A stretch of DNA of 64,000 nucleotides from Dermatophagoides farinae (Eukaryota; Arthropoda; Arachnida; Sarcoptiformes; Pyroglyphidae): assembly GCF_024713945.1 (NCBI RefSeq), contig NC_134679.1:4655001-4719000 (forward strand), in the 5' to 3' direction. The position numbers and the translations under genes were made by a program. How positions within the stretch are numbered: the stretch's first letter is position 1; every line of letters begins with the position of its first letter. Under the pieces are notes generated by a model. That model worked only from the letters and a program-made list of their open reading frames with translations, did no database searches and was not told the DNA's origin. Below are positions 41,201-63,200 of this stretch, piece by piece.

Positions 41201-44200
41201 ATTACCGAATACTATGTGTTTGACTAATTAATTAGACACTTATTTATTTCATTAAAAACAACAAAATAAAAAAAAAGAAATGTTAATGATGTATAGATTG
41301 AAAAAACAAAATAAAACTAAAATATTTCATCATCATGAAATATGAGGTAAAAAATAGAAGTGAACAGTTTCTAAAATAAACAGTTTAAATGAACAACAAC
41401 AACAACAACAACAAAATAACAAATCTAATAATAATTGGATTCCATTGACTAAAAAGTGGATAATTTATTTAATCAAAAAGTGTTTCCCGTTAACAAAAAA
41501 AAAAAAAAAAAAATACTTGAACCAGTAACCGATTAATTGTGGTCAAATTTCTGTAGAAATTTAGCATCACAAAAATTGATCGATTGATCACAATATAATG
41601 AATCGATTCGTTTTTTTTTTTTGATTTTCAATAGTCCAATTATATAATTTAGATTGGTGTATTGGAGAGAACCCATTAGTGTATTTTTTTTTTTTTTTTG
41701 GTGTTATTTTTGGTATTTTTGTTTAGCTACCGGTGTTTTCACTGTTCAATACGAAAAACACATTAATTGGACCCAAACATCAAATAAGTAATGATGAATG
41801 ATTGAATGAATGAATGAATGGTTTCTTAATTAAACCTGGATATTACCGCATCATTTGTAACAAAAAAAAAACAATCATTATGGTTGAAAATGAACATTTC
41901 ATTTATTGACCACAACAGTCTAGTAGTAGCAACAATCATTAACACCAAAAACAAAACAAAACAAAACAAAAATATATCTTGATCGAATATTTCAAAATGT
42001 GAATTTTTTTTTCTGCAACACTATACTACCGATTGGTTGTATTTGAAAGCTTGAAACTTGTATTGGCTGCGCTACACTATCCACCGTATATATCTCTCTC
42101 TATCTCTCTCTTTTGCCAATCCAAGAATTCTCTTTTTTTCATGACTCTTTTTTTTCATTTCTGTTGTTGATGATGATGATGATTTCAGTCCAGATCTTTT
42201 TTTTTCGTATTCAATAAATGAAATAAACATTAGACATGAAACAACAACAAGACCTGTTGTCGGCGAAAGCGGCGGTTGTTGTTGTTGTTGTTTGCTTTCT
42301 GTTGAATCACATATACATTGATTTTTTAATTGTGTTTTGTTTGTAAACAGTAAAACAACAATAGAAAAAGTTTCAATTCATCAACCAAAAAAAAAAAAAA
42401 AAAAAAAGATTCCTTTATGACTACACGATTCAGTAGTTCAAATCGATTGTTTAATAATTAGTGAATATGATATAATTTTGTTTTTGTGGCTTTTGTTCTG
42501 TGTATTTCTATTATGCGTTTTGTCCGTGGAAAATATCAAGACAATTTACAATGTGACAATCGTCATAGTGATGAAAATTATTTCTGGTCAGATAAAAATC
42601 TGTAATGGCTTTTATTCAATGATGATTTGATTAATGTCTAAATGTTTAAAAAATTACGACCAAAATCAATGATTATGGATAAAAATTCATATCCATATTT
42701 GAATTATCTATTTTCCAATAATAAACCTATCGGTGGTGGTGGTGTTAGTAGTGCACCATATCATTCATTTGCAAGCTATTATTGTCCATCATCAATGCCA
42801 AATCCATTAAATAACAGCAGTGGTGGTGCTGGTAATCATAACAATTTACAATATCCTCAAAATAACGGTACAAATAATTGTCCATCAAATACCTCATCAC
42901 CATCGTCTATGAATCGACGATCAACATCAAAAAATCCAAATGGACCACCACCACCACCACCACCAACACTCCCATCACATCATAGGCCATCATCATCATC
43001 ATATAGAAGACCTATTTATAGTATAGCCAATCCGAATTATTCTCCATATCGTTCTGGTCGACCGCCACCACAGCAGTCATCGAATTCTTATCTAAAATTA
43101 CATCCAACACATAATTATCCTAGATATTATTCAACATCCTATCCATATTGTTTGTCATCATCATCATCATTACCATTGCAATCATCATTTACAACATTTA
43201 ATTCAAGTGTCAAATTACAGCAGCTCGGTAATCGATTACAATCATGGAAAACGGCGTCAATTGTATGTAAATTATTGTCGTATATAAATAATATATATGT
43301 GTCCATCACACAAACAATATTTCGTTCTACAATTTTTTTTTTTTTTTTTTGACAACTGCACTTGATGATAATTTGACATTTCGATTTCGATTTGAATTTT
43401 TTTTCATTTCATTTCATTTCTTTTTTGATAATGAAAAACAAAAATAAACGTCATTTCGAGTTTTTCATCAATCAATCTTTTTTTTTAGTTTTCATAAAGA
43501 AAAAAAAAAGATAATAGAAATCAAGTAGCTTGTTCTAATCACAAGATCAAGATGTGAAACGAACTTTTTTTTTATACTTTTGACCTGATATATTATCATA
43601 ATAATAATTCTATCCTGTCATTGATATTTGTAAATTTTTTTTTTTGATTTCATAAGTTCAATATTTGATTTTGTAGGGGTAATTTATTCGTCACAGAAAA
43701 TTTGGTTTGTCAGCATATCATTTATCAGCTTTTCAATATATATATATAGAGAGAGAGAAAAAAAAAGAGGACCCGATCAACTCGATTCATCACGATTAAA
43801 CACACAGAGAAAAGAAAAGCTCGGTCAATGAATTATTGAGTTTTTTTTCAATTTAACCTGCATAGAATATGAAATTGAAAAAAAAATTCATTGATAAAAA
43901 TGATTGTTTAAAATTAACGTGATGATACGATTATCTATGAACGGAAGAAGGGAAAATTTTCACTTTTTTTTAACAATTTTCATTCATTATCTGTTTAAAT
44001 TTAGATTCATTCATTTTTTTTAGAACAGGAATTCCGTCATTTCTTTTTTTTGTTGTTCTTAAATTAAACGAATTATATAATTATTATTATTGTTGTTTGT
44101 AGTTTGGTTTACGTGCTTGGATGATTCAATTTCATTTCGGTTTTTTTTTAATAATGATGATGATAATGGACAATTATCATTTGTCATCATATCTTTTTGA

Positions 44201-47200
44201 TATACATTGAGAAACAACATCTCTTTGTCCCTCCATCCATGAATACTATGTTGAGTAAAACATCACCAACTTGATGATGAAGATGACGATGATGACACAT
44301 ATCTTCTTGGTTCGTTTTGGAGAAAAAAAATGTCATTCTTAGTAATTATTAAATAATAATAATAATGTTGGACATGATGAAACAAACAAACGAAACAAAA
44401 GAAAAAATGCTTTTGTATTTTGCATGAAGGGTTTTTCCCTTTTAAAGCCTCTTTTTTAAAAAAGCGTGATTAAAATATTTTTTTTCACATTTTCTAAAAT
44501 ATAAAAATAACAATAATGAAATTAAATAATCTACACAGGTCGGTCGGTCGAAAATCTCATCATCATCATCATAATAATTCGGGTCGGTCATCCATCTAGC
44601 CAATCTTGTTTTTGTTATTTATTTTTTTTTATTCAAATTTAAATTATCGAAACGAATTGATCAAATGAAATGCAATGAATGCAACGACACACGAAACAAA
44701 ACAAAACAAAAAAATTCTTTTAATAATGGCATCGTTAAAACAATCAACCATACACACAATATTATTAAAAGTTTAGGGTCAATCGATCGATCTATCGATT
44801 TGGTTCGTCTTTTGTCTATCTGGTCATCTTTCATCTTTTGATGAACATTGGCTTTATTTGTATCTGTTTATAATCAAATATAAATAAATGAAAATAATAA
44901 GCAGATGTGTATGTGTGCGCCATTCTTTCGAATGATGGATTTGCAATAAAACAAAACAAAAATATCTGACAATTTTCACTTAGATCCACCATTTGTTTTG
45001 ATCTTAATCGCTTTTTCTTTTTGATCCATCACATACATTTATTTGATTTGTGTAGTTTTTCATGTTTTCATACAAACAATTTGCATTTTTTTCATTTTTT
45101 TTTTTTTTTTTTTTGATTATGAATTGATTACCTACACATACATATCGCAGTATTATCTATTTACAATTTTTTTCACCATCATCATCATCGTCATCATTTG
45201 TTTGCCAATTGAATTGGTTTTGAATTCAATTTCCAATACCCGGTGTATTTTTTTTTGTCTGTCTAACAAAACAATATTGATGAAATTATTAAATTTAAAT
45301 TTAATTTCGTTGTTGTTATTGTGATTTGTGGCTTTCCAATCAAAAAAAAAAAAAAATGAAATGAAATGAAAATAAAATTGTTCGATTGTAATATACAACA
45401 AACATTGATTTTGTATTTTGTTTGATCGATGCTTGAAGCAATAATAATCCACAAGATGATATCATTGATAGAATTTTCAAAAGGGAAAGATTTTCAATTT
45501 TTTTTTCGTATTTGATAACATGTTTACATCTTTAGTTTATTTGATGAATAGAAATAGAAATGTAAAGATGAAAATCATGTATATTCGTGTATATTTTGTT
45601 GATAATATGACTGAATCCACATGACATGAATATGATTCCACAAAACATTAGTTTCTAATAATTTTGTTTCTGTTTTTGTTGTTGTTGTTGTTACTGACCC
45701 AATAGCAATAGGTATCAATTTTATCAATCATTTTGTTGCCTTTTCTTTTTCTCTCTCTCTCTCTAAGGATTGACGATGATGATATAAATCTAATACATGG
45801 ATTTTTTATGTTCGTGTTTATGTTTATCTTGATTTTTTTGTCATTGAATTTCTGTATATTTTTTTTCAATTGACCATAACGGCTTTTTTTTCTTTCTTGT
45901 TTGTTGCCAATGATCGTTTGTTTTCAATTCAATTCAATCCATTGATCGATAGATTTTCTTCTTCTTTTTCATACTATTGGATCATATCTTTGACAGGGCG
46001 CTATCAAATATTGCCGATATTGCTAAATGATCATTTGTTCAGGTCACAGCTTAAGAAAAACCGTGTGTATGCTACTAACGTGTGAAATGTGGATTAATAG
46101 TAATTTGTAACTTGCAAAACTTAAACTATGTAAATCTTATAGGATATTTTTATGGATTTTTTATTCAAAAAAAAAAGACTTGAGTAGATTTTCAATCAAC
46201 CCTTTTTGAAGGGAAAACAAATACAGATGAATGAGTAAAAAAAAGAATTTTATCCAACAGTTCTTTGTTGAATTTTTTTTCATTCTAATCAACAACAAAA
46301 AAAATGACATTCATGACCAATGGATTGTTTCTACCTATCTACAAATGGGGTTTGTTTGTTTGTTTATTCATTCATTCATTCAATTCACTCATTCATTTGT
46401 ATGTTTGTTTTGTCCGTTGTTGACCTGTTTAAATCTTTGATCACCATCATCATAATCATCATTATCATAGATTTATGAATAAATTGATGATGGAGATGGA
46501 AAAAAAATTAATATTTGAAAATGTTGTATGTATGCATACAAATATAACTGTTACTTGCAAGTTCATTTCGTAAATATATTTGATGAATAGTCCCAAAAAC
46601 ATTCGATGGCTATGACCGGCGATCATCATCATCATCATCACAAACACAAACGACCACATATTTTTTTTTTGTTCTTCCTGATCTTTATAAATATATGTGG
46701 TGACAAAAATTGTATTGCATAAAAAGATTACATTTAGATTAGATTTAATTTAGTTATCATCATCATCATCATGACTTTTTGATGTTTATCACAAATTGCA
46801 GTTGAATGTGTAGAGAAAAAATAAATTTGAAATTAATTACAATCTGATAGCGGTAGTAGTTGTATTTTCATAAATAAAAGACAAAAAAAAACGATGTTAC
46901 AATGTCGAAAATGTGTGAATGAATGAATGAATAGATAATTTTTGGGCCGTTGACTTTTTTTTTCGTACAAATAAATAAACCAAATGTTGCTGTCCATAGA
47001 CAATAGCGTATATCTGACCAAGTTTTTTTCTTTTTTTCCCTCTCTCTCAATATCTATGAATGTGAATACGAAGATGATGATGATAAGATCAAATGAAAGA
47101 TTGAACGATTTGATTTCTGAACAATCTCATCATCATCAACATCACTGAAAAAAAAATCATCGCTCAGCATAGAAATCAATTGATCAATCTGAAAAAAAAT

Positions 47201-48115
47201 CAACCATAAAACCGACCAATATATGAGATTGTAATTTTATGCCCACACATAAACACGTAATATACAGCGCCTACTTGTTGTTATTGTTGTTGTTGTTGAA
47301 AATTCATTCGACCTTTTTTGGATCATAATCAATTTATATATTGAATGAATTAGATCAGATATCTAGATAGGGTTACTCTTCTAATAGGATTCGATTCATA
47401 GAACAGGAAAAATAAAATTTTTTCTTGTCAAGAAAAAAATCATCATAATCATTTTTTTCCGAGAGATTTTTTTTGTTATTATTTCTTTGGTCAAAAAACT
47501 ACCATTTTTGGTGTTGTATACATTGGACGTTGTCATTTTTTCCACATTTTGATTTTTTTCTTCACTTTTTTTATATCATTTTGATTATTGATTTCTATTT
47601 ATCATTTAGGGAATATCTTTTCTGGTATTATTGTTGCTCATCTGTAAACTACATGATGTTGATCGTGAAATCAATTATCTACATTATATATCCAATGAAT
47701 GGCTATCACAGCAAGCAGTCAATCATCAGTTATTAACATCATCATCATCTGCTGCTGCTGTTATTGGAAGTGGTGATGGTAATGCAGAACCATCGAAACG
47801 AAGAATGGATAACCATCATCATCAACCATTAGATGGTCATCACGATAATAATAATGACTATGATGATAACAGCCATAATCTTTATTCACTGGTATTAAAT
47901 GCCACAATCAATAATACCACAACGAAAACCATCATCAATACTAAAGACAATTATTCTAATGATATTTTTGATGAAAAAAATTTCGATCCAAATAAAGATG
48001 ATCTATTCAATGATCTATCACCATTTACCAATTATCGATTACGGCCAATTTCATCACCAATTGTTGCCAAAAGAAAATCTCAACCATCAGAAAATGATCA
48101 AAAATTAACTAGTCG

Positions 48116-48146
<31 letters not shown>

Positions 48147-51100
48147 CAACAACAACAACAACCAACAAACAAACCACAAAATAATCAACAAAAATCATCC
48201 ACATCTATTGTTGATGAATCTATTGATCATCAACAAAATTCACATCATAATAATCGACACTTAAAAACTCAACATATTACCAGTCATCAACAGCATCGAT
48301 TATCACCAGTTCAAAAGGAAATTATTCATCATCATCCGAATGATGATGATGATAATGATAATGATGATGATGTTGAACCTATACAAGAATTGGCTTCAGC
48401 AAGTAATCATGATGTAATCGAATTGGCTAATATAATATCAATCATTAGTTATTTAAAAGAAGATGTCGACGTTTTAATGAGTATGTGATGATTTATTATT
48501 ATGTTTAAATGAAAATAAAAAATTAAATTATAAACTAATCGATTATTACAAATTAACAATAAACATAGGTGAATTGATGGCCGCTCGTACAACATTATTA
48601 CTGAGCCTAGTATTTGTTTTAGTCTACATTCTAAGGTTAGTAAAAAAAAACATTTGAAACACATGAACAGAAAACAGAAAAAAAGAAAATTTGAATTTTC
48701 ATTTCATTTTTAAATTGTAATTTGTTAAATTTCAGTCAGTATACAAAAAAAACAAATCTCATTTTGATGATCATGATGACGATGACGATGATGATACTCA
48801 TGGTGATTTTCATCATGATGAGATGAAAAATTTGCCCATTTTTTTTCTTGACTTGTTATAATAGTCGTATATATTATTCACACGTTATCGCTATTATATT
48901 ATTTATACTACAACACCGTTGTTGTTGTTGTTGTTGTTGAAAGATAATTTCACGTAATCCAAACGATTAATGTGTTCATATTAAATGTTGGACATGAAAT
49001 CTTTTCTTTTTTTTGACATATCATCCAATTCACTGTGTTTGTTTATGTTTTTTTTTTTAATATATCTCAATTCCGAATCACAGTTGTAAGTGGATCACAC
49101 ATAAATAATCGTATGTGTGTGTGTGTGTGTATCATCACAAGTTCAATTGTCTTAGAATGTGGAACAATTGCTTATTGCAAGTCAGAAGAAAATGAAAACA
49201 GAATACAAATTACTAATATAATTAAGCTCATCTTTATTTTTTCATTGAAAAATATGTCAATGTGAATTGAATCACATATATAGGCCGATATAATGATAAC
49301 CAACATGGTCAATTTTTGTGGTAGAAAAATGAAAATTTTACCACATCGAATTTCTGTTTCTGAATCATTTTTTCCATTTTTTCTTCCTATTTTGGTTTAT
49401 CTTGATCCTCTTGCGACGGTAATGTCTTCACAGTAAGGAAGCCAAAAAAAATCTGATCATCGATAAGGTTGTGTTCGATATGCTGCTGTACATAAAAAAA
49501 AATGATTTATGTTTAAATTAAATTAAAATTTCTGAAAATTTTTAAAAAGGAGATCGTGATGAATCTTTTTTTTCTCTCCAAACGAAATGAGAAAAGAATA
49601 AATGTAATTTTTTCCATCATCATCGATGATGGTCAATATCGATCAATAGATCGATTATATATAATTGATCGTTGAAAAAAAATGGCCAAACAATCAATCA
49701 ATTTGGCACGTTTCTTTTTCTTTCTCTCTATTAGCCTTTTCGATCATGAACGAAATTTCATGTTCATATTGGTTGATTGAAAATGGAACATTGAAGAAAT
49801 TTTGCAAATTTTTTAATCAATTTTTTACTTTCTTTTTTTATTATGTAAAAATTCCACGCATACTTTTTTTCTGGAACACAAACACACACACACACAGTTG
49901 GTGTTGGATGGCCTATGCAATTCGAGCAACAAACACACCGGTAAGTGGTTTTTTTTCATATATATGTTCTGTAAAACGACAAACAATATGTTAAAATTAG
50001 TTTTTTTTCTTATTTTTGGAATAATCACAATTGAAAATCATTTCAAGTATTCAAAATAACTTTATGTAATACAAATTTGAATGAAGAGTAGTGAAATGTG
50101 AACGTTTTTTTCTGCCTCTTTTATCTAGCGGTTTAATCAAATCAATCAATCAAAAAAAAAAAAAAAAAAAAAACAAAAAAAAACAGTGAATCCAAGAAAA
50201 AAAATTTCTGTTGTCAACAACAGGAAGTTTTTTTTTCGTTGTTAATCCATGTGATTTTCATTTTTTTTTCTCTCTCTCTTTCTAAATTTAAATTTATATT
50301 TTCTCATCATTCGTTTTTATTTGCTTATTTTTTTTCTCCCCACTATGATGATGATGATGATGATCATCACAGCAAGACATATCATTGAAAACGGTACTTT
50401 TGTTGGCTATATTTGCTGCTGTTGATATTGCTGCCAGTGCCGGTTTTGTTATGGTTCGAATCATAATGGTAAATTATTATTGGATTTACGAAATTCTTTA
50501 TTAATTGATTTGAATTGAAATGTTGATTTCGATTTTTTAATCTCATTTAAAAAAAAAATGAATTGAATCAGTATTTGATGCGTGATCATTATTTTCCTCG
50601 TGACATGCGAATACCATTACATTCATTAGAATATAATCAATTACCGGCTCATGTTGCACTTCGTTTGACCAGTATGAAGGTAGATATTTTTATTTTACTT
50701 GTCTTGAATCTAAAATAATAATTGATCATTTATGAATTTTTTTTCATTGTTTTCTACCAACATTTTATCATTATTAAAGTCGGGTACGGGTGTCATCGAT
50801 ATATTTGTTTCTGTGATTGTAACATTTTTAACTTCGTTACGTGTATATTCGGTCATTTGTGCCGTATCATTCTATCGAAGAGCTCGTAAAGGTAATTCAG
50901 ATTATTGATTGTTTGATATTCGATTTTCAATATCTTCTACATTTTTATAATTAGAATTGTTAAATGTAAAAAATTTTGAATACATGATCGAACGGCCAAC
51001 AACATCTAGATTTCCATCAATGATCGGTAATTCATCGACAAATTATCTTCGTGGTTCAATGATGGCAGCTGCAGCTGCTTCAAATTCAAAGCCAAGTCCA

Positions 51101-51796
51101 ACAAATAGTACTGGTGATGGTGGTAAACATGATTCCTGCGATTTAGGACAAAGTGGTTATCTGTACGTCTGTTGTTTGTTTATATTTTTAGCTATAGATT
51201 TTTCTTCTCAAATTTATTTATGTAACATATGAATTTTTGTTTTGTTTTGTTTTCCTTTTTTAACAACATCCTCAGTCCTAAAATAAGGTTATTAAGTGCA
51301 CATAAAGATCTTGAAAGACGATTCTCCATCAACAATGGTCGCAACGTACATCATTCTCATCATCATCATCATCATGATGTTAATGTAACAAATTCATCTA
51401 GTGACAATAATTCTACGGATATTTCATCCGCTGATGATGATCCAGCTTTAGAATTGAAAATACAAGCAGCCGATATGCCTGCATCAATACAAAAATCGGC
51501 AATGCAATCAACAATACATGCATTACGTACATATACAACTGAAAAACATATAGCTGAAAGTATAAAACAAAATTTCGATCAATTGTATGAACCAACATGG
51601 CATTGTATTGTTGGAAGAAATTGGGGTTCTTGTGTAACTCATACCAAGGTACGATGATAATTGATTGAAATTTAAAAAAAAATTGTTTATCCATTGATTT
51701 AACATTTATTCAATTTTTTTTTTTTACTTCACACAGTCGAATTATATTAGAATGTTGTATAAAGATCTAACCATTCTTCTATATAAATCATCATAA
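37743..51796 (+). CDS. Four-pass membrane protein with C-terminal dynein light chain LC8 domain, 10 exons
   Basis: Exons 37743-37835, 47610-48480, 48569-48635, 49898-49940, 50373-50468, 50572-50679, 50780-50891, 50955-51162, 51276-51648 and 51737-51796 sum to 2031 nt (676 residues) with matching phases at every junction. Predicted TM1 is about 32-45 (GISFLVLLLLICKL). A long polar loop of about 270 residues with His, Gln and Asp runs follows, then TM2 329-343, TM3 364-385 and TM4 430-453. A cytosolic Ser/Asn/His-rich linker leads to residues 598-676, which align without gaps to the LC8 core: ADMPASIQKS, then YEPTWHCIVGRNWGSCVTHT, then ILLYKSS. LC8 is normally a free homodimeric hub of dynein and myosin V. 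No ATG stands where a separate LC8 gene would start, so the domain is fused. I do not recognise the membrane part. The first exon is joined over a 9.8 kb intron and is the least certain piece. Confidence 0.78.
38247..38280. repeat. (GAT)n microsatellite
   Basis: A GAT/ATG trinucleotide run of about 34 nt inside the long first intron of the LC8-fusion gene. Confidence 0.9.
42386..42408. repeat. Poly-A run
   Basis: An A homopolymer of about 22 nt, some 230 nt upstream of the candidate alternative first exon. Confidence 0.85.
42642..43262 (+). CDS. Candidate alternative first exon of the LC8-fusion gene
   Basis: A 207-codon open segment beginning MFKKLRPKSMIMDKN and ending at att|gtatgt in phase 0. 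This is the same phase as the 37743-37835 exon, so either can join the exon at 47610. The encoded segment is rich in Pro, Ser, Tyr and Asn (for example a GPPPPPPPTLP tract and SYRRPIYS) and has no membrane segment, as expected for an intrinsically disordered cytosolic N-terminus. Length, composition and a phase-compatible donor argue for a real exon, but the splice itself is inferred. It could also be a separate gene with exons I did not find. Confidence 0.55.
43263..47609 (+). other. Intronic AT-rich DNA of the LC8-fusion gene, 3' part
   Basis: No exon or RNA gene recognised. GAT, TCA and GT repeats and T runs dominate. Confidence 0.6.
50152..50173. repeat. Poly-A run
   Basis: An A homopolymer of about 22 nt within an intron (49941-50372) of the LC8-fusion gene. 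Confidence 0.9.
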
Positions 51797-52359
51797 TCAT
51801 AAGCAGAAAACGAGTCAATGAACGAAACAAAATGAAACGAATCGAACAGGAAATGGATATGGATTTTATTCTTTTTTTTATATTTTTTTTTGTTATATTT
51901 TTTCTTTTATTTATTACCTTTTTCTCATTGGAATTTTTTTTTCTATTGTGCCTCAATTTTTTTTTGTTGTTGAAATAAAAATTGAAATGTTTTTTTTCTT
52001 GTTTTGAATAAATGCAAAATTTGATTGTCATTAAAATCATTGAATACACACACACACGCAAACAGACTATATAATTTGGGCGTCATGATTCTCTTCTCGG
52101 AAATGCTCTTCACATGAATTTCAAGAATCATGCGCTTATTTATTTATATGGTTGTGAATCATAGATTCTGGTCTTGGAGCTTGGTCTATATTTCATTATT
52201 GATTCAGTTTAATATGACTTTGTATTATGATGAAAATAAAAACACTTTAATGCATATGATTGCATATAAGAGCAATATTGAAAAACCAATCGAGTTTTGG
52301 TTATTCATCTGATTATTTACTAAAAAATAAGAAAAATCAAAAATTGAATTCAAAAAAAA
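51797..52359. other. Intergenic region between the LC8-fusion and Ly6 genes
   Basis: AT-rich DNA containing AATAAA at 51974-51979, a plausible poly-A signal for the LC8-fusion transcript, and presumably the Ly6 gene promoter. Both genes are on the plus strand, 563 nt apart. Confidence 0.5.
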
Positions 52360-53403
52360 ATGTTTACAACTTTCCTCATATCATTGATACCTACTACGGC
52401 AAGTAATCCTCTTTCAAATTCCAAAAACAAACATTCATTGTTGTTAAAACCATTGACAATTCTATGGTTTATAATACCATCGTTGATTATAATTGCTTCT
52501 TCATCATCGGCAGCCTTATCAAGTAAGTTTTCTCAAGATTATTATGATTCCAATATATTGATCATCAATTCTAATTCTAAATTCAAAAGGAATGAATAGC
52601 GAAGTGATCACTAGTAATAGTGGAATTGGCGTTTCAGACATGTTACTTATATCGAATCTATCTTGTTATGTTTGCACTACAATCGATGATATTAATTGCA
52701 AATATCTAAATGAAACAATTAACCGTCTTCATCGACAACAACAACAGGAAATGGGTGGCAACACTGGTAGTGGTGAACATTCTATGATTGGATACGATAA
52801 TGATCAATCCGGATATTCAAACCATGACCATCATCATAATCCAAATCATGATCATTATACTCTTGAATCTATACTATCGGCAGATAGTAGTAGCTATGAT
52901 TTATTAGCAACAGCTTCATCATCAAGCGAAGATCAAAGTTTATTACCGACAAATAATGGCGGTCATATGGATCCAAATTTAATGAATGAATTTCGTGCCG
53001 ATTGTTCACCGAGCGAACAATATTGTGTGGTCATACGATTAGGCGTTAGTGCACCAGACAATGTACAAGAGTTTAATTTTTTTGCCTTAAAACGTGGTTG
53101 TGCTGAACAATGTACGGATGGTTGTTTTATCATTGGTAATGGTAAGTTTTTCTTTTCCTTTGATAATATTTGGTAGCAAAAATATTGACCATAATTATTA
53201 TCCATTTATTTCATACCCGGTTTTTTTTCACAAAAAATATTTTAGGTGAAAAAACTAAGCTAAGCATATGTGCTAGTTGCTGTCGAAATAATTATTGTAA
53301 TCTAGGCAATTCAGCCACAGCATTTAACCATCATCATACTGGTCAATGGTTTTTGACCATAATCATTATATCATTACTATTGTTGATGATTCGAATCATT
53401 TGA
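52360..53403 (+). CDS. Ly6/uPAR (three-finger fold) GPI-anchored surface protein with a long low-complexity insertion, 3 exons
   Basis: Exons 52360-52522, 52590-53141 and 53246-53403 give 290 residues in phase. After a hydrophobic leader (about residues 32-52, preceded by an unusually long polar N-terminus) comes the Ly6 opening LSCYVCTTIDDINC. Then follow CSPSEQYC, RGCAEQCTDGC and the hallmark end CASCCRNNYCN. The last Cys-Asn motif precedes a hydrophobic tail (LTIIIISLLLLMIRII) typical of GPI attachment. The pattern resembles arthropod quiver/sleepless-type Ly6 proteins, which modulate channels and receptors or organise septate junctions. Between the third and fourth cysteines sits roughly 100 residues of Gln, Gly, His and Ser-rich sequence, far longer than a normal Ly6 finger. 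Family confident, function unknown. AATAAA follows at 53543-53548. Confidence 0.85.
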
Positions 53404-54020: not shown

Positions 54021-57000
54021 CTAAATTGATTTCATCGATGACCGGTCCAAAATCAATTCACATATTCGATCAATAAATAATGCACCGATAAGATCAGAAG
54101 CCAATACCGTTAGTATGGTCGTTTGAAACTGTTGAAATTAAAAATAAACAGAAATTTATTAAATAGAGCTCGATACTCGAGAAACAAAGAAAAAATGGTT
54201 ACCGGCTGTGGAAACTCAACAACGGAAAATTGTTCAGAAAATTCGGGCATCACACCAGTAACAAGAACGATAACCAAACCAAATGAGCCCAGAATACTGT
54301 ACAAAAGTGGACGATTTTCTGCCAAACTACACATGAATGGATGACCCTGAATAAAGATGAGGTAATTATGAAATCATTAATTTCGAATTCATGAATCACG
54401 GTCATAAATAGAAATAAAAATGAGCAACTAACCTTGTAATTGACGGCAAATGTTGCAACTTGTAATGAAATGGAAATTATATAGACAGTCGAATTCAACA
54501 ATGATGGTTTGAATTCAGTATCTAGATCGACGAATTTTTCCGTCCGTGGCGGTGACATTGCCGTTGCTTCACGGACTAGATAAACCAAGGCCAAAAAATG
54601 TACAGCAAATTGAAGCAATACGGTCAATATGGTGTACAAGTTGAATATGTTGGATAATGGACGGCGTTTTGATAGTACCTCCAATGGCTATTAATCAACA
54701 ATGAAATCAGGACAAATATCACAAAGCTATTGGAACCTTACCTTTGAACGAGTGATGAATAGAAAACAACCGGTAAGGAAGAGTCCCTGTAGTGTTGCTT
54801 GACCATCACTGAATTTAATTCCGTCCAGATAAAGTACTGATTGGCAATAGGCTAGGATAAGAGCATTGAGTGCAAGAATTTTAAACATTTGTAGTGTTGT
54901 GACTAATGTACAACGGCCCTGACGAATTATATGTGAAACTAATAAAAAATAAAAAGCATTACAATGAAAATTATCAATTATTTAACATGAATATGAAAAA
55001 AAATTCTATTTACTGCATTGAATCGATGATAGCTTCGATGTAAATGGTGCAGCAATGCTAGCATCACCCAACTTTACAATTTGAGATTTATCTTGTTCTT
55101 CCAATTCTTTCAATAATTGATTGATACGCTCCTGCGTGCGAACTATACGTGGATTCACTGAAGACGATGCCGAATTCATGGAATTATTATTATGACCATG
55201 ATTTCGTCGTTGCCTATGATGGTTATTATTCATTATACGACTATTATTCCGTTCGGCCAATACATCATTGATTGAACGACGATAATCTCCATTATTATTA
55301 GCTGGGATGTTGTTAGATGATTTTTCAGTTTTCGGCATAGGTAAGGGATTCGAAAGTAAAGCCACGCCAACATGAGCATGTTTTAATGCGCCAACATCAT
55401 TGGTTCCATCACCACACATTAATGTTGTATAACCCAATGATCGTAATGATGTTATGATGAATTCTTTTTGTTTCGGTGCCACACGTGCAAACACACGAAT
55501 TTTGGGCAAAATTTTGATGAAAAATTTCGGATCATAATCAAGTAAAGCATTGAGGCTATCACCGGTAACACAGAATTCATATTGTCGAAAGAATTCATTG
55601 TTATCAGGTATCAATGGTAAACAGATTTTTTCATCAATTGATTTCCACACAAGTTTTTCCGTACCATTGAGAATAATTGTTGTTTTATTACCCGAAACAA
55701 AATATAGCTCTTTAGCTACATGACAAGCGGTAAGTGGTGCATCACCGGTAATCATTGTAACATAATGTGATGAACTAATAATTTCTTTCATTACTGATAT
55801 TGAATCAGGTTTTAGCGGGCAGGAAATTATCAGAAAGCCAACAAATTCGAGTTCAGTTTCCACTTCTTCACGAGTGAAATTCCTAATTTGTCCAGGCGAT
55901 ATATTGCCTAGACTTTTTCGACCTAACGCTAACACACGTGCACCTTTACGAGACATTTCCAGGTATACGTTATCATATTTATCCGGAATTTTTGAAAACT
56001 TGAAAAAAGAATTTAAAATTTAGAATTTACTTTTTTTTGATTTTTGAAAAATACATACCATTGGTTTAAGAATTTCCGGTGCTCCTTTGACCGATACGAA
56101 ATAACTGGATTCACCTGATGTAACGTCATTATAACCAGCAATAACTGACATTCGTTTCAATTGACTTGAAAAATGATTTCGTTGGAATATTTTCAAGCCT
56201 GTTTGTTTGCCTTTACGTGGAATAACCGAATCACCTTTAGTCAATGTCCAATCGATTGATTTGAGTGTCGATTTTTCCAATGGATCACCAACAAGTCCAT
56301 CGTCTAGATAGACAAGTGAATGACATGTAGCCAATACTTGGATGGTTTTAATTGGGACTTCTTGAGGTGTCTGAATTTTATCATCATTTTGTGGATCAAG
56401 ACCGGCAACACCTTCGACTACAAGATCATTACTGGTCAATGTACCAGTTTTATCAAAACAACAAATATCAACTTTTCCGGCAAAAGGAATTCGAAATGGT
56501 TCGGTACAGAAAATGTATAGCTTGATCAATGATGTTAATGAACTATTGACAGCCAATGATAATTCTATTGGCAATTCTGGTGGTACGACTGATGTTAAGA
56601 TCAATGCACATTCGAGCATTAATTTATATTTATTTCGTTTAGGATCTTCGGATGCATGATTCCAAACGTATGATGCGGCAGCAATAGCAAAAATAAGCAA
56701 GAAACAAATGAAACCAAATGTCTCAATATTATTGGCCGTAACTCGTTGAACACCATAAAGAATGGTCCGTAGCAATTTTCCCTGAGATGTCTGAAATCCA
56801 GTACGAAGTACATATGCAATACAACCGTTATCACTGGCTCGTAAACTGACAGCATTTTTCACCGGCGATGTATGTTGAAGAATTTTTGTGCCACCATATA
56901 AAACATGCAGTTTTCCGTCGGTATCAACATTGAATTGTCGATCACCGACATCGGTTAGATTTTCAATCGGTTCTTTCATCTGTGGTACAGATTCACCAGT

Positions 57001-57978
57001 CAACATTGATTCATCGACAATACATGAACCACGTAAAAGTATTAAATCACATGGAACAAGATTATCATCTTGAGATCGTCCAATGGATATGATATCACCT
57101 GGGATAAGTTCTGATGAAAGAATTGAATGCCATTTATGATTACGATATGCCAACATTTCATATGGTTTATTTCCCATCTTACGAATTTCGGCCATATTTC
57201 TCAATTGTTGTGTGACAAGAATGCTTTCGAATGCAACCAACATCATTAAGGTGAATAGACTATAATACCAAAATTCATCCAAACACCAAAGACCAACACA
57301 GAATACTTGAAAAACAAAAAATGGTGCCGTTGCTCGTTCACGGAATAGTGTCCAGAAATCCGGTATATCCATGTCGAGAAGATTTTTTCCATATAATTTA
57401 ATTGCTGTTTGTAGTTCATTGTCATTTGGATAGCCATGCCATTTTTGATATGTTTTGTACGGAAGATCCGTAGGAAAAATGATCTGCTGAAACGTTTGTT
57501 TATCATAATCATAAATATATTTGGTTTTTTGAAACAAAAACCAAATGGTTTCTTTGCCATCGATTTTTGCATGCCGTAACGGTACAAGTTCAGCTGAACC
57601 ATTATTAGAAGTGGGCACTACTTTTGCCCAGGCTGCATCGGTTACATTTTTTACCTGTAAAAAAAAGTAATGTATTCAAAGGATCTAAACAACTTTGAAA
57701 TATACCTTTGAATAAGCAAGAAAACATAGACAATGTACTGACCACATTCCAGATAAAAATGTGAGTAATTGCAATAGACAAAGAGATCCACCGGTTATAA
57801 TGTAGACATCGGAATAATTTTCATCGGAATAAAAATACCAGACACATAGTATTGTTTGTAATGTAAAAAATGGCCCAATAAAACCTTGCAGAATTAGTGG
57901 TTTAACATTATAACACTGAACACTTTGTACCAATTGATCGGTACTATCACGAACTGAAGTTAGATCTTTGAATGTCAT
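54021..57978 (-). CDS. ATP13A1: ATP13A1, ER P5A-type transport ATPase, 7 exons
   Basis: Minus-strand exons 57978-57706, 57654-56059, 55998-55014, 54938-54742, 54687-54433, 54346-54203 and 54128-54021 give 1185 residues, close to the roughly 1200 usual for the family. P5A ATPases (yeast Spf1) sit in the endoplasmic reticulum and pull mistargeted tail-anchored or mitochondrial helices out of the membrane. The P5A-defining PPELPIE motif is at 449-453. The phosphorylation site is Asp492 in [12 protein letters not shown]. Other P-type motifs are TGES (310-313, actuator), [21 protein letters not shown], and [13 protein letters not shown] in the hinge. The family-specific [18 protein letters not shown] follows an Asn/Arg-rich insertion in the nucleotide-binding domain. 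All key residues are present. Introns are 51-86 nt. It diverges from cyclin K. Confidence 0.97.
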
Positions 57979-58455
57979 TTTTGTTGTATCGATTCTATGA
58001 TGACCACTAAAATAAGAAAAAAAAATTAACAATGCAAAATGAAAAAAAGATTCGAAATTTAATTATGGAACCATTGCTTTTTTGAATGAGATATTCTGCC
58101 AAGATTCACAAAAAAAATTTCAAGTGAATAAAATTTCGAAATAATTGGCATCAATAATTCTCAAGAAAAAATTCTTGGTTGAATGAATCATAAAAACCGC
58201 ATCGCGTCATATGCGACGTTTTATTATTTGCCCCTAACACGGCTATTTAAACAACACAATGTCTGATACGCGCTCGCTCGCTCTCACATTCTTTTACACT
58301 TTTGTTGGATCATTTATTTTGCCTTATTTAAAACAATTTTTAATTATTTGAATTCTCCTTTATTGTGTGATTTTTTTTGCAGTAGATTATTCTCAAAAAG
58401 GTATTTACAAATAAATGTGATGAATTTTTATTTTTAAATCATTTTTATTATCAGA
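57979..58455. promoter_or_regulatory. Divergent promoter region between ATP13A1 and CCNK
   Basis: The 477 bp between the two start codons must carry both promoters. The stretch at 58200-58290 is locally GC-richer than its surroundings (gcatcgcgtcatatgcgacg and a CGCTCGCTCGCTC run), unusual in this AT-rich window, and is the best guess for the core. No TATA box was assigned. Confidence 0.5.
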
Positions 58456-60251: not shown

Positions 60252-63200
60252 ATGATAAATTTGATCAATTCAAAAATGTCGATGCGTTTATTACAGAAAT
60301 GTGTAAGACTAAGGTCGAATAGTAGTGGAATATGGATGTCGAGGACAAATAATTCTACCATGTTTGATAATATTCTCCATCGAAATATTTCGACTACCTC
60401 CCTATGCAATGATAAATCAAATGTAAGAATTTCAAAATTAAATGATGTTAACCTTACCTGTTTTTTTTATTCTGACCAACTTGGTTATTTTATAGCTTAA
60501 AAGTTATCAGGTGATTGACCATACATTTGATGCCGTAGTTGTTGGTGCAGGTGGTGCCGGTCTACGTGCTGCATTTGGCCTTGTAGAGAAAGGATTCAAT
60601 ACAGCTGTTGTGAGTAAATTATTTCCCACCCGATCACATACGGTTGCTGCACAAGGCGGAATCAATGCTGCGTTGGGCAATATGGAACCGGATGATTGGC
60701 GTTGGCATATGTATGATACGGTTAAAGGTTCCGATTGGCTTGGTGATCAAGATGCTATTCAATACATGACACGTGAAGCACCCAAAGCAGTCACTGAGGT
60801 ACAGTTGACATATCGAAAAAATAACATTTCACTTTCATATAGTTATTATTAATATCTTCATAGCTTGAAAATTATGGCATGCCTTTTAGTCGCACACCTG
60901 AAGGAAAAATCTATCAACGAGCATTTGGTGGTCAGTCATATAATTTTGGTAAAGGTGGACAAGCACATCGTTGTTGTGCTGTAGCTGATCGTACCGGTCA
61001 TTCACTATTACATACGTTATATGGGCAATCATTGCGTTATGATTGTAAATATTTTATCGAATATTTCGTTCTTGATTTGATTATGGAAGGTGGTGCCTGT
61101 CGTGGTGTAATAGCATTATCACTCGAAGATGGTACTTTACATCGATTCAGGTCCAAGAATACAATTCTAGCTACGGGGTATGCTATTTATCTGTAAAAAT
61201 GTTTAAAAATTCAAATTGATATTTTTATTGTAGTGGATATGGTCGTGCATATTTTTCATGTACATCTGCACATACCTGTACGGGAGATGGTACGGCCATG
61301 GTCAACCGGGCTGGCCTTCCCTCCCAGGATCTTGAATTTATTCAATTTCATCCCACCGGTATCTATGGCGCTGGTTGTTTAATGACTGAAGGTAATTTGG
61401 ATAGATAACTGAGAAGATTTGTTTCAATTTTTTTTCCTTTGAAGGATGTCGTGGCGAAGGTGGATTTCTGGTCAATAGTGAAGGAGAACGCTTCATGGAA
61501 CGATATGCACCAGTGGCCAAAGATCTAGCATCGAGAGATGTCGTTTCACGATCGATGACCATTGAAATTCGTGAAGGACGTGGTTGTGGTCCTCAAAAAG
61601 ACCATGTCTATTTGCAACTACATCATTTACCAGCCGAACAATTGGCTCTTCGTTTACCCGGTATTTCGGAAACTGCCATGATATTCGCCGGTGTTGATGT
61701 TACTCGAGAACCAATACCGGTGTTACCAACTGTACATTATAATATGGGTGGTGTACCGACCAATTACAAAGGGCAAGTGTTGAATTATTCTGAAGAAAAG
61801 GGCGATATGGTCATTCCTGGCTTATACGCTGCTGGTGAAGCTGGTTGTGCATCGGTACATGGAGCCAATCGTTTGGGTGCCAATTCACTTCTGGATCTGG
61901 TTGTTTTTGGTCGTGCTTGTGCTCATGCAATCGCTGAATCTAATCGTCCTGGTGAATCATTGCCCGAATTTTCTGCTACTGCTGGTGAAGCTTCTATTGA
62001 TAATCTGGATCGTTTACGTTATGCCAAAGGTTCTTTATTGACTGCTCAATTACGATTGAAAATGCAAAAAGACATGCAAGAACATGCAGCCGTTTTCCGT
62101 ACGGGTCCATTATTGAAAGAAGGTGTAGAAAAACTTAAACAAGACTTTAAAATGCTTAATGATTTGAAGGTAAGTTTGAAGATACAAAAATAATTTTCTG
62201 ACCATTCGCAATCATCAATTTTGATCATTTGTCGAATGTTCTTCTTACATTCGAACGCACAGCCACATACACACACACACTGTACACACTCAAAAAAACT
62301 TGATTTTTTCGTATTAACCATTCTGCAAAAAGGCAATTAAGTGATGTTTATCGATGTTGGACAGTCGTTTGAAATTGAGAGATAGAAATTGATTATTGGC
62401 TGTTTATTTTACTAATATATTTTCAAGCGATAAATTTTAGTTGTTGATCTATTGTATATCGTGTACGTGATAGATTTCAAATGGCATAGGTGAACATATA
62501 CACATACAAGTAGCCATGTTAAGAAAAAGAAAACTCTGCAATGAATGAATGAACATTGATGACTGGACAACGATCGACGACTAAATTTCCCCAAAAAATG
62601 TGTCAAATCAATTAAAGAACATAAATTGTGTGTGTGTGTGTGTGTGTGTATGCTTGATTCAAACATTGATAGATGTATTTCGAAAGATACGGATGATTAT
62701 GATAGCAATGCGGTTTTTTATTTGTACTAGTTTTTTTCTTGAAATAGTTATAGTTATAAATGATAATGTTAGACATATAGACCCATACAATATTTTTCGT
62801 TGATTCATCAAGCAATACATGAATTGAATCCTGGATAAATTTTTTTTTAAATATATAACACATAACAAATGATGTCTGATCGGTTTTGTCAAATGATGAT
62901 TTTAATGAATATCATCATTTGTTTCATTTTTGATCTTTCTTTTTTATCGCTATTGATCGATTGATTAATCGATCAAAATAAAACATTTATCTAAGAAGAT
63001 TATTGCTAGCTTGTTTTATCTGCTCGATATTTTTTGTTAGTTTTATGTAATTACTGCAAAAATATTTGAGAGTTCAACATTCTCTTGTTGAAAAATTATT
63101 ATAATTTTTTTCCTTTGAATTTTTTTTTTTATTTGCTGTTTAGAACTAGTGTGTTTGAATTATCCTACATAATACGAATATATAATGATGACGATGATGA

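Follow-up and report, generated by a model that had tools for sequence, protein, structure and literature searches.

We favour, at a little under even confidence, the explanation that a single gene of the house dust mite Dermatophagoides farinae encodes a membrane protein, most likely a four-pass one, that has a divergent LC8 domain at the end of its C-terminal tail and is predicted to pair through this tail with a second copy. The gene lies in the 64,000-nucleotide stretch of DNA that was analysed (hereafter, “the window”), which corresponds to C3 4655001-4719000 of the mite genome that we searched (62,435,336 bases in 22 contigs). On C4 this genome carries a group 21 allergen gene that, by an eye count of the alignment, agrees with Der f 21 (chain 5ynx) at 111/113 aligned residues, both differences being N-terminal; a published D. 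farinae assembly likewise has Der f 21 on chromosome 4 (PMC11074847). A Der p 2-like paralogue (108 bits) is present as well. The model consists of ten exons from 42642 to 51796 and encodes 852 residues; the phases agree throughout, with a single stop codon at the end. Its features, in window coordinates, are as follows:

42642..43262, plus strand: exon 1; ATG, 207 codons, low-complexity hydrophilic N-terminus; coding score 50.4
47610..48480, plus strand: exon 2; remainder of predicted TM1 plus a long loop rich in His/Asn/Gln/Asp; coding score 44.4
48569..48635, plus strand: exon 3; predicted TM2; weak coding score of 2.9
49898..49940, plus strand: exon 4; 43 bases that complete TM2 and add a short loop; coding score 0.6
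50373..50468, plus strand: exon 5; predicted TM3; coding score 7.0; picked when exons 6-10 are fixed
50572..50679, plus strand: exon 6; TM3-TM4 loop; coding score 10.3; free decoding begins the gene inside this exon, at ATG 50578
50780..50891, plus strand: exon 7; predicted TM4, with RRARK at the end; coding score 8.8; found ab initio
50955..51162, plus strand: exon 8; linker after TM4; coding score 12.6; found ab initio
51163..51275, plus strand: putative intron joining the membrane part to the LC8 part; GT-AG (gtacgt...cctcag), with an in-frame ATG at 51229 inside
51276..51648, plus strand: exon 9; LC8 beta1 to beta3, preceded by a His-rich linker; start found ab initio, end placed from LC8 homology
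51457..51793 (about 51457-51648 plus 51737-51793), plus strand: LC8 / Dynein_light domain, residues 770-852; Pfam and PDB matches; intron 51649-51736 inside
51737..51796, plus strand: exon 10; LC8 beta4-beta5, ending in KSS and then TAA
51974..51979, plus strand: first AATAAA downstream of 50300, likely a common 3' end; a second stands at 52007

A preliminary description of this DNA, made from the letters alone, had reported an open frame running into the upstream exon, a KS near the C-terminus, and exon phases that match back through four membrane segments. The first two hold, with a GT-AG intron at 51163-51275 and a KSS at the end of exon 10. The third holds for the phases, which agree through all ten exons; however, the multi-pass character is less secure than the joint to the LC8 part, because the segments rest on hydropathy and free decoding keeps only the last of them in the LC8 gene.

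Judged by sequence similarity, the LC8 (DYNLL-type) domain at the end of the predicted gene is real, and the similarity is far beyond chance. In a scan of the 852-residue predicted protein, the domain matches Pfam PF01221 (Dynein_light) with 95.3 bits (E 2.9e-27; the curated cut-off is 29.1 bits), and residues 770-851 cover profile positions 3-86 of 86. At E ≤0.001, 43 PDB sequences match the tail (best E 2.8e-21), 42 of them named dynein light chains and one named Dyn2. The tail aligns with LC8s of solved structure without a gap in all three alignments displayed. Against human DYNLL1 (residues 8-88 of the sequence used agree with the PDB chain), 38/81 aligned residues are identical, with 0 gaps. 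The mite also has a canonical LC8 of its own on contig C2, a free protein of 90 residues encoded in a single open frame and identical to human DYNLL1 at 76/87 residues; the tail matches this copy at 37/81 residues, again with 0 gaps. The preliminary description was right that the LC8 domain aligns without a gap, as the 81 gapless positions attest, but it had placed the domain at residues 598-676 of a 676-residue protein, where our model puts it at residues 770-851 of 852.

The Dynein_light family is spread in the mite genome beyond the canonical LC8, since further divergent relatives occur on C1 (51.8 bits), C6 (37.5 bits) and C5 (25.0 bits, which falls under the cut-off of 29.1). Separately, C17:290224-293412 holds an LC8 gene with an apparent intron, 65% identical to the query over residues 26-88. 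C17 is a 320 kb contig whose G+C content near the LC8 gene is 36%, compared with 28-32% where it was measured in the window and at five further loci, and the gene is flanked by frames that we presume to be Rab-like and RING-like. The contig may derive from a different eukaryote present in the culture.

Whether the LC8 domain is joined to the membrane part was examined with a hidden-Markov gene finder of our own. The coding model was built on 65 long ORFs (20,809 codons) outside this gene, and the splice signals on 99 introns found outside this gene, with a median length of 69 bases. Unprompted, the finder linked 50780-50891, 50955-51162 and the sequence from 51276 onward. The exact joint 51162|51276 was chosen in 36/36 settings, and in 16/16 when a second class, of long introns, was added. 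Because other genes of the window sat in this first training set, the analysis was repeated with training on 20 stretches elsewhere only (53 ORFs, 17,291 codons and 67 introns, with the window excluded); the held-out finder chose the same joint in 24/24 settings. Ranked against the 3131 GTs and 1926 AGs of the window, the donor of the joining intron falls in the top 2.3% and its acceptor in the top 12.6%.

An alternative, which we regard as unlikely, is that the locus holds a pair of genes, side by side or overlapping: the first encodes a membrane protein and ends upstream of the intron or within it, and the second is an LC8-like gene whose product, starting at ATG 51229, has a short hydrophobic N-terminus (MNFCFVLFSFFNNIL...). 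This ATG is in frame and sits directly after a stop codon, and forcing the finder to place intergenic sequence at 51215 makes it start a gene at ATG 51229 and close the upstream one at 50908. However, forcing the two parts into separate genes costs 15.2 nats relative to joining them (14.1 to 17.1 held out), and the difference stays between 10.0 and 16.6 nats across 20 half-samples of the training ORFs. The 47 bases that such a gene would use as its first coding sequence, 51229-51275, are T-rich and end in AG, resembling a polypyrimidine tract and acceptor, and have a coding score of -2.3. The upstream gene would also be without an AATAAA: there is none between the membrane and LC8 parts, from 50300 to 51974, and of the two ATTAAA sites (50773 and 52030) the single one available to it, 50773, lies in intron 6, upstream of exon 7.

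It is unlikely that both products are made, that is, the fusion together with an isoform consisting of LC8 only and driven by an internal promoter. Retention of the intron would instead give the membrane protein a new hydrophobic tail. The in-frame ATG at 51229 would serve such an isoform, and read-through from exon 8 yields YVCCLFIFLAIDFSSQIYLCNI and then a stop; the case for this alternative is a possibility drawn from the letters alone. As an observation in its own right, 51163-51232, if retained, would add the hydrophobic tail YVCCLFIFLAIDFSSQIYLCNI to the membrane protein, but the stretch is possibly just a T-rich intron.

The start codons near the LC8 part bear on the same question. In frame there are ATGs at 51229, in the putative intron, and at 51475 and 51502, within the domain; from 51232 to the domain's own methionines there is no start codon in frame. 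Since beta1 precedes the domain's first methionine, a free LC8 product would require an upstream start. The preliminary description had stated that no ATG stands where a free LC8 would begin, which is correct from 51232 to the domain methionines but overlooked the in-frame ATG at 51229. A free LC8 starting at ATG 51475 was considered and dropped; it scores 21.1 nats below the fusion and is without beta1. We also considered, and dropped, an open frame arising by chance. Among real noncoding stretches of 192 bases, 30/819 are equally open, as are 1156/100000 simulated stretches of about 192 bases, so the openness of the linker by itself counts as modest evidence.

The earlier claim that LC8 is fused to a membrane protein is thus partly supported: the gene-model evidence (the phases, the held-out joint, and the lack of both an AATAAA and a start codon from 51232 to the domain methionines) stands behind the fusion, with splicing at this joint in vivo being predicted, but the number of membrane passes is less secure. 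Within the predicted structure, the strongest support is for the joint that connects TM4 to LC8; TM1 to TM3 are likely, though less sure.

The uncertainty upstream is apparent from the gene finder. Free decoding starts the LC8 gene at 50578, and exons 1 and 2 become a separate gene (in one displayed setting, exons 1-3 plus another). As displayed, free decodings with two intron classes extend exon 2 to a stop at 48488; free decoding with short introns only also splits exons 1 and 2 apart. Once long introns are allowed, the intron 43263-47609 between these two exons is picked in 16/16 settings. Compared with the free optimum, a model forced to contain all ten exons loses 30.1 nats when there is one intron class (108.3 versus 138.35), 12.8 when there are two (129.1 versus 141.8), and 12.4 held out (117.1 versus 129.5).

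These results raise the possibility, which we consider real but doubtful, that LC8 is fused to a single-pass protein starting at 50578 and not to a four-pass one. Free decoding gives exactly this start. However, the preference for 50578 comes in part from the penalty on long introns, given the fall in the ten-exon deficit from 30.1 to 12.8 nats when a second intron class is allowed. In addition, exons 5 to 1 continue in phase, and if exon 6 must begin at its acceptor, the finder takes exons 1, 2 and 5 and most of exon 3. With exons 6-10 fixed, exon 3 is taken to 48609, and exon 4 is omitted even then; this version, with a shorter exon 3 and without exon 4, scores 135.6 (+6.5 relative to the ten-exon model) and 122.0 held out (+4.9). 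Exon 3 appears whole in one of the two held-out decodings displayed. Exon 4 is the weakest exon and may be wrong. Exon 9 is another place where the finder errs: it stops at 51604 or 51657, whereas homology to LC8 calls for an end at 51648.

As a control, we used an adjoining gene on the minus strand, 54433-58006. Decoded by the same finder, it matches P5A-ATPase structures with 1311 bits over residues 70-1103. Four exon junctions fall well within the alignment; three are gapless, and the fourth, near the start, has an adjacent 11-residue gap; the last small exon lies outside the matched range. This first control was not independent, its exons being in the training set, and a held-out version was run: the first five exons are unchanged, and the sixth ends at 54331 instead of 54433. 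The 54433-58006 region of the window is, in its own right, a gene for a P5A-type ATPase (ER transmembrane helix translocase). Two further predicted coding regions of the window lie on the plus strand. The first, 52360-53403, encodes a cysteine-rich predicted protein with hydrophobic ends that has 0 Pfam matches at E ≤0.01 and that we take, by eye, to be Ly6-like. The second, 61405-62190, is a frame matching FAD_binding_2 (60.8 bits over the 79 residues tested), presumably a succinate dehydrogenase flavoprotein-like sequence.

Hydropathy places four candidate membrane segments near residues 199-225, 495-531, 535-569 and 598-634. Residues 190-204, before TM1, contain three K/R and 0 acidic residues, and residues 630-645 contain five K/R and one acidic residue; both sets of charges fit cytosolic ends. 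The preliminary description had put the LC8 tail in the cytosol. This is plausible from the five K/R at 630-645, but the topology signs are mixed: among the 39 residues of the TM3-TM4 loop, which is expected outside, are five K/R and three acidic ones, and 12/16 N-x-S/T sites lie in parts expected to be cytosolic. With only 4/16 of these sites in the first long loop, they leave the topology unsettled.

The membrane part matched no known family in the collections searched. Dynein_light is the only Pfam match for the 852 residues (E ≤5), and the 177-residue TM2-TM4 stretch by itself has 0 Pfam matches. NCBIfam gives 0 matches for the membrane part, the best PDB match has an E of 0.47, and no profile match points to a tetraspanin, claudin or similar known membrane family. 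The long first loop contains no cysteine. Within the mite genome the membrane part has no paralogue, with 6/6 matching rows being its own locus. A search of a prokaryote contig collection for relatives of the TM2-TM4 stretch gave 24 pattern matches, 0 of them confirmed, and a search of a virus contig collection for relatives of the LC8 domain gave 7, also with 0 confirmed; these collections say little for a mite gene.

The LC8 domain itself has diverged unevenly. The client groove of LC8 is lined by the aromatic residues Phe73, Tyr75, Tyr77, Phe62 and Tyr65 (PMC3078936). In the tail, 0/5 of these are unchanged (F62W, Y65C, F73Y, Y75R and Y77L), and three of the changes (Y65C, Y75R and Y77L) are non-conservative; the canonical mite LC8 retains 5/5. 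Because none of the five is unchanged, the tail is best described as a divergent member of the family and not as a canonical LC8. Residues 52-61, the PTWHCIVGRN core, are by contrast 10/10 identical, which bears out the preliminary description on this motif. The core includes His55 of the LC8 dimer segment. With strand boundaries that we assume for these counts, beta3 (62-68) is identical at 5/7 residues and beta4 at 1/7. When LC8 dimerises, the beta3 strand of one protomer pairs with the beta2 strand of its partner (PMC12017986). At the level of sequence, the pattern is one in which the dimer strands are kept and the client groove is rebuilt.

This pattern bears on two further alternatives. 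The first, which we consider quite unlikely, accepts the fusion and takes the domain to be a canonical LC8, making the protein a membrane-bound adaptor for the dynein intermediate chain, myosin V and other TQT clients. Residues E35, K36, H55, S64, T67 and H68 are retained, as such an adaptor would have them; against it are the five altered groove aromatics, three of them changed non-conservatively, the poorly kept beta4, and the separate canonical LC8 with all five aromatics in the same genome. According to PMC12017986, known structures also argue against a cargo-adaptor role. Of the two roles suggested in the preliminary description, a dimerisation module is favoured by the intact 52-61 segment, and a constitutive dynein or myosin V adaptor is weakened by the groove and by the same source (PMC12017986). 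On the evidence of the altered groove, the tail appears more likely to dimerise with itself than to serve dynein or myosin V as a canonical adaptor.

The second alternative is that the LC8 exons are a decaying, functionless duplicate that has become attached to a membrane gene. The identity to human DYNLL1, 38/81 as opposed to 76/87 for the canonical mite copy, is what such decay might leave. However, the frame is intact across two exons, and an unconstrained copy would hardly keep residues 52-61 at 10/10 while diverging so far elsewhere; we consider this reading highly unlikely.

In the explanation we favour, a membrane protein with a divergent LC8 tail, two copies would pair through the kept LC8 dimer strands, with beta2-beta3 exchange, and this pairing of tails would hold the membrane protein as a dimer. 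In the remodelled groove the preference for TQT-type client peptides would be altered or gone, and pairing of the tail with free LC8 would also be possible. The LC8 client motif [TVI]Q[TVI] has 0 matches within the 852-residue predicted protein. A more elaborate proposal, which is conceivable but which we hold with little confidence, is that a membrane-tethered LC8, its groove rebuilt for a different peptide code, pairs with itself or with free LC8, and so might bring the hub to one membrane and dimerise a receptor-like protein.

LC8 is described as a dimeric hub of which other proteins make use by way of short peptides (PMC12017986 and PMC6607443). If the predicted fusion is true, it would offer a natural test of whether the basic job of LC8 is to dimerise its partners, because a fused partner would no longer need the peptide. 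It would also show how an LC8 domain evolves once its client groove is released. The species that carries the gene is a common allergenic mite, and several of its assemblies have been published.

Two known systems invite comparison. The first is LC8/DYNLL itself (PF01221). The mite tail aligns with it over 81 gapless positions and keeps the dimer segment 52-61, H55 and S88. However, canonical LC8 is free and soluble, whereas the mite domain is fused in frame to a predicted membrane protein, and the fused model gives the LC8 domain no start of its own. The second system is the trematode TAL / FhCaBP family, in which a dynein-light-chain domain is likewise the C-terminal module of a larger protein. 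In these proteins the partner is a calcium-binding EF-hand pair; in contrast, the sole Pfam match of the mite protein is Dynein_light, and the scan of its 852 residues at E ≤5 gave no N-terminal EF-hand pair. FhCaBP4 is a homodimer whose interface resembles those of other DLC domains (PMC12347358). Among the matches listed in the open-licence literature searched, the titles and abstract openings describe no membrane-anchored LC8 fusion, and no open-licence paper was found that treats a dynein light chain together with the house dust mite, its transcriptome and its genome. Fusions of a dynein light chain with EF-hands are already known in flatworms; a membrane-anchored LC8 fusion, as predicted here for the mite, appears to be a new variety.
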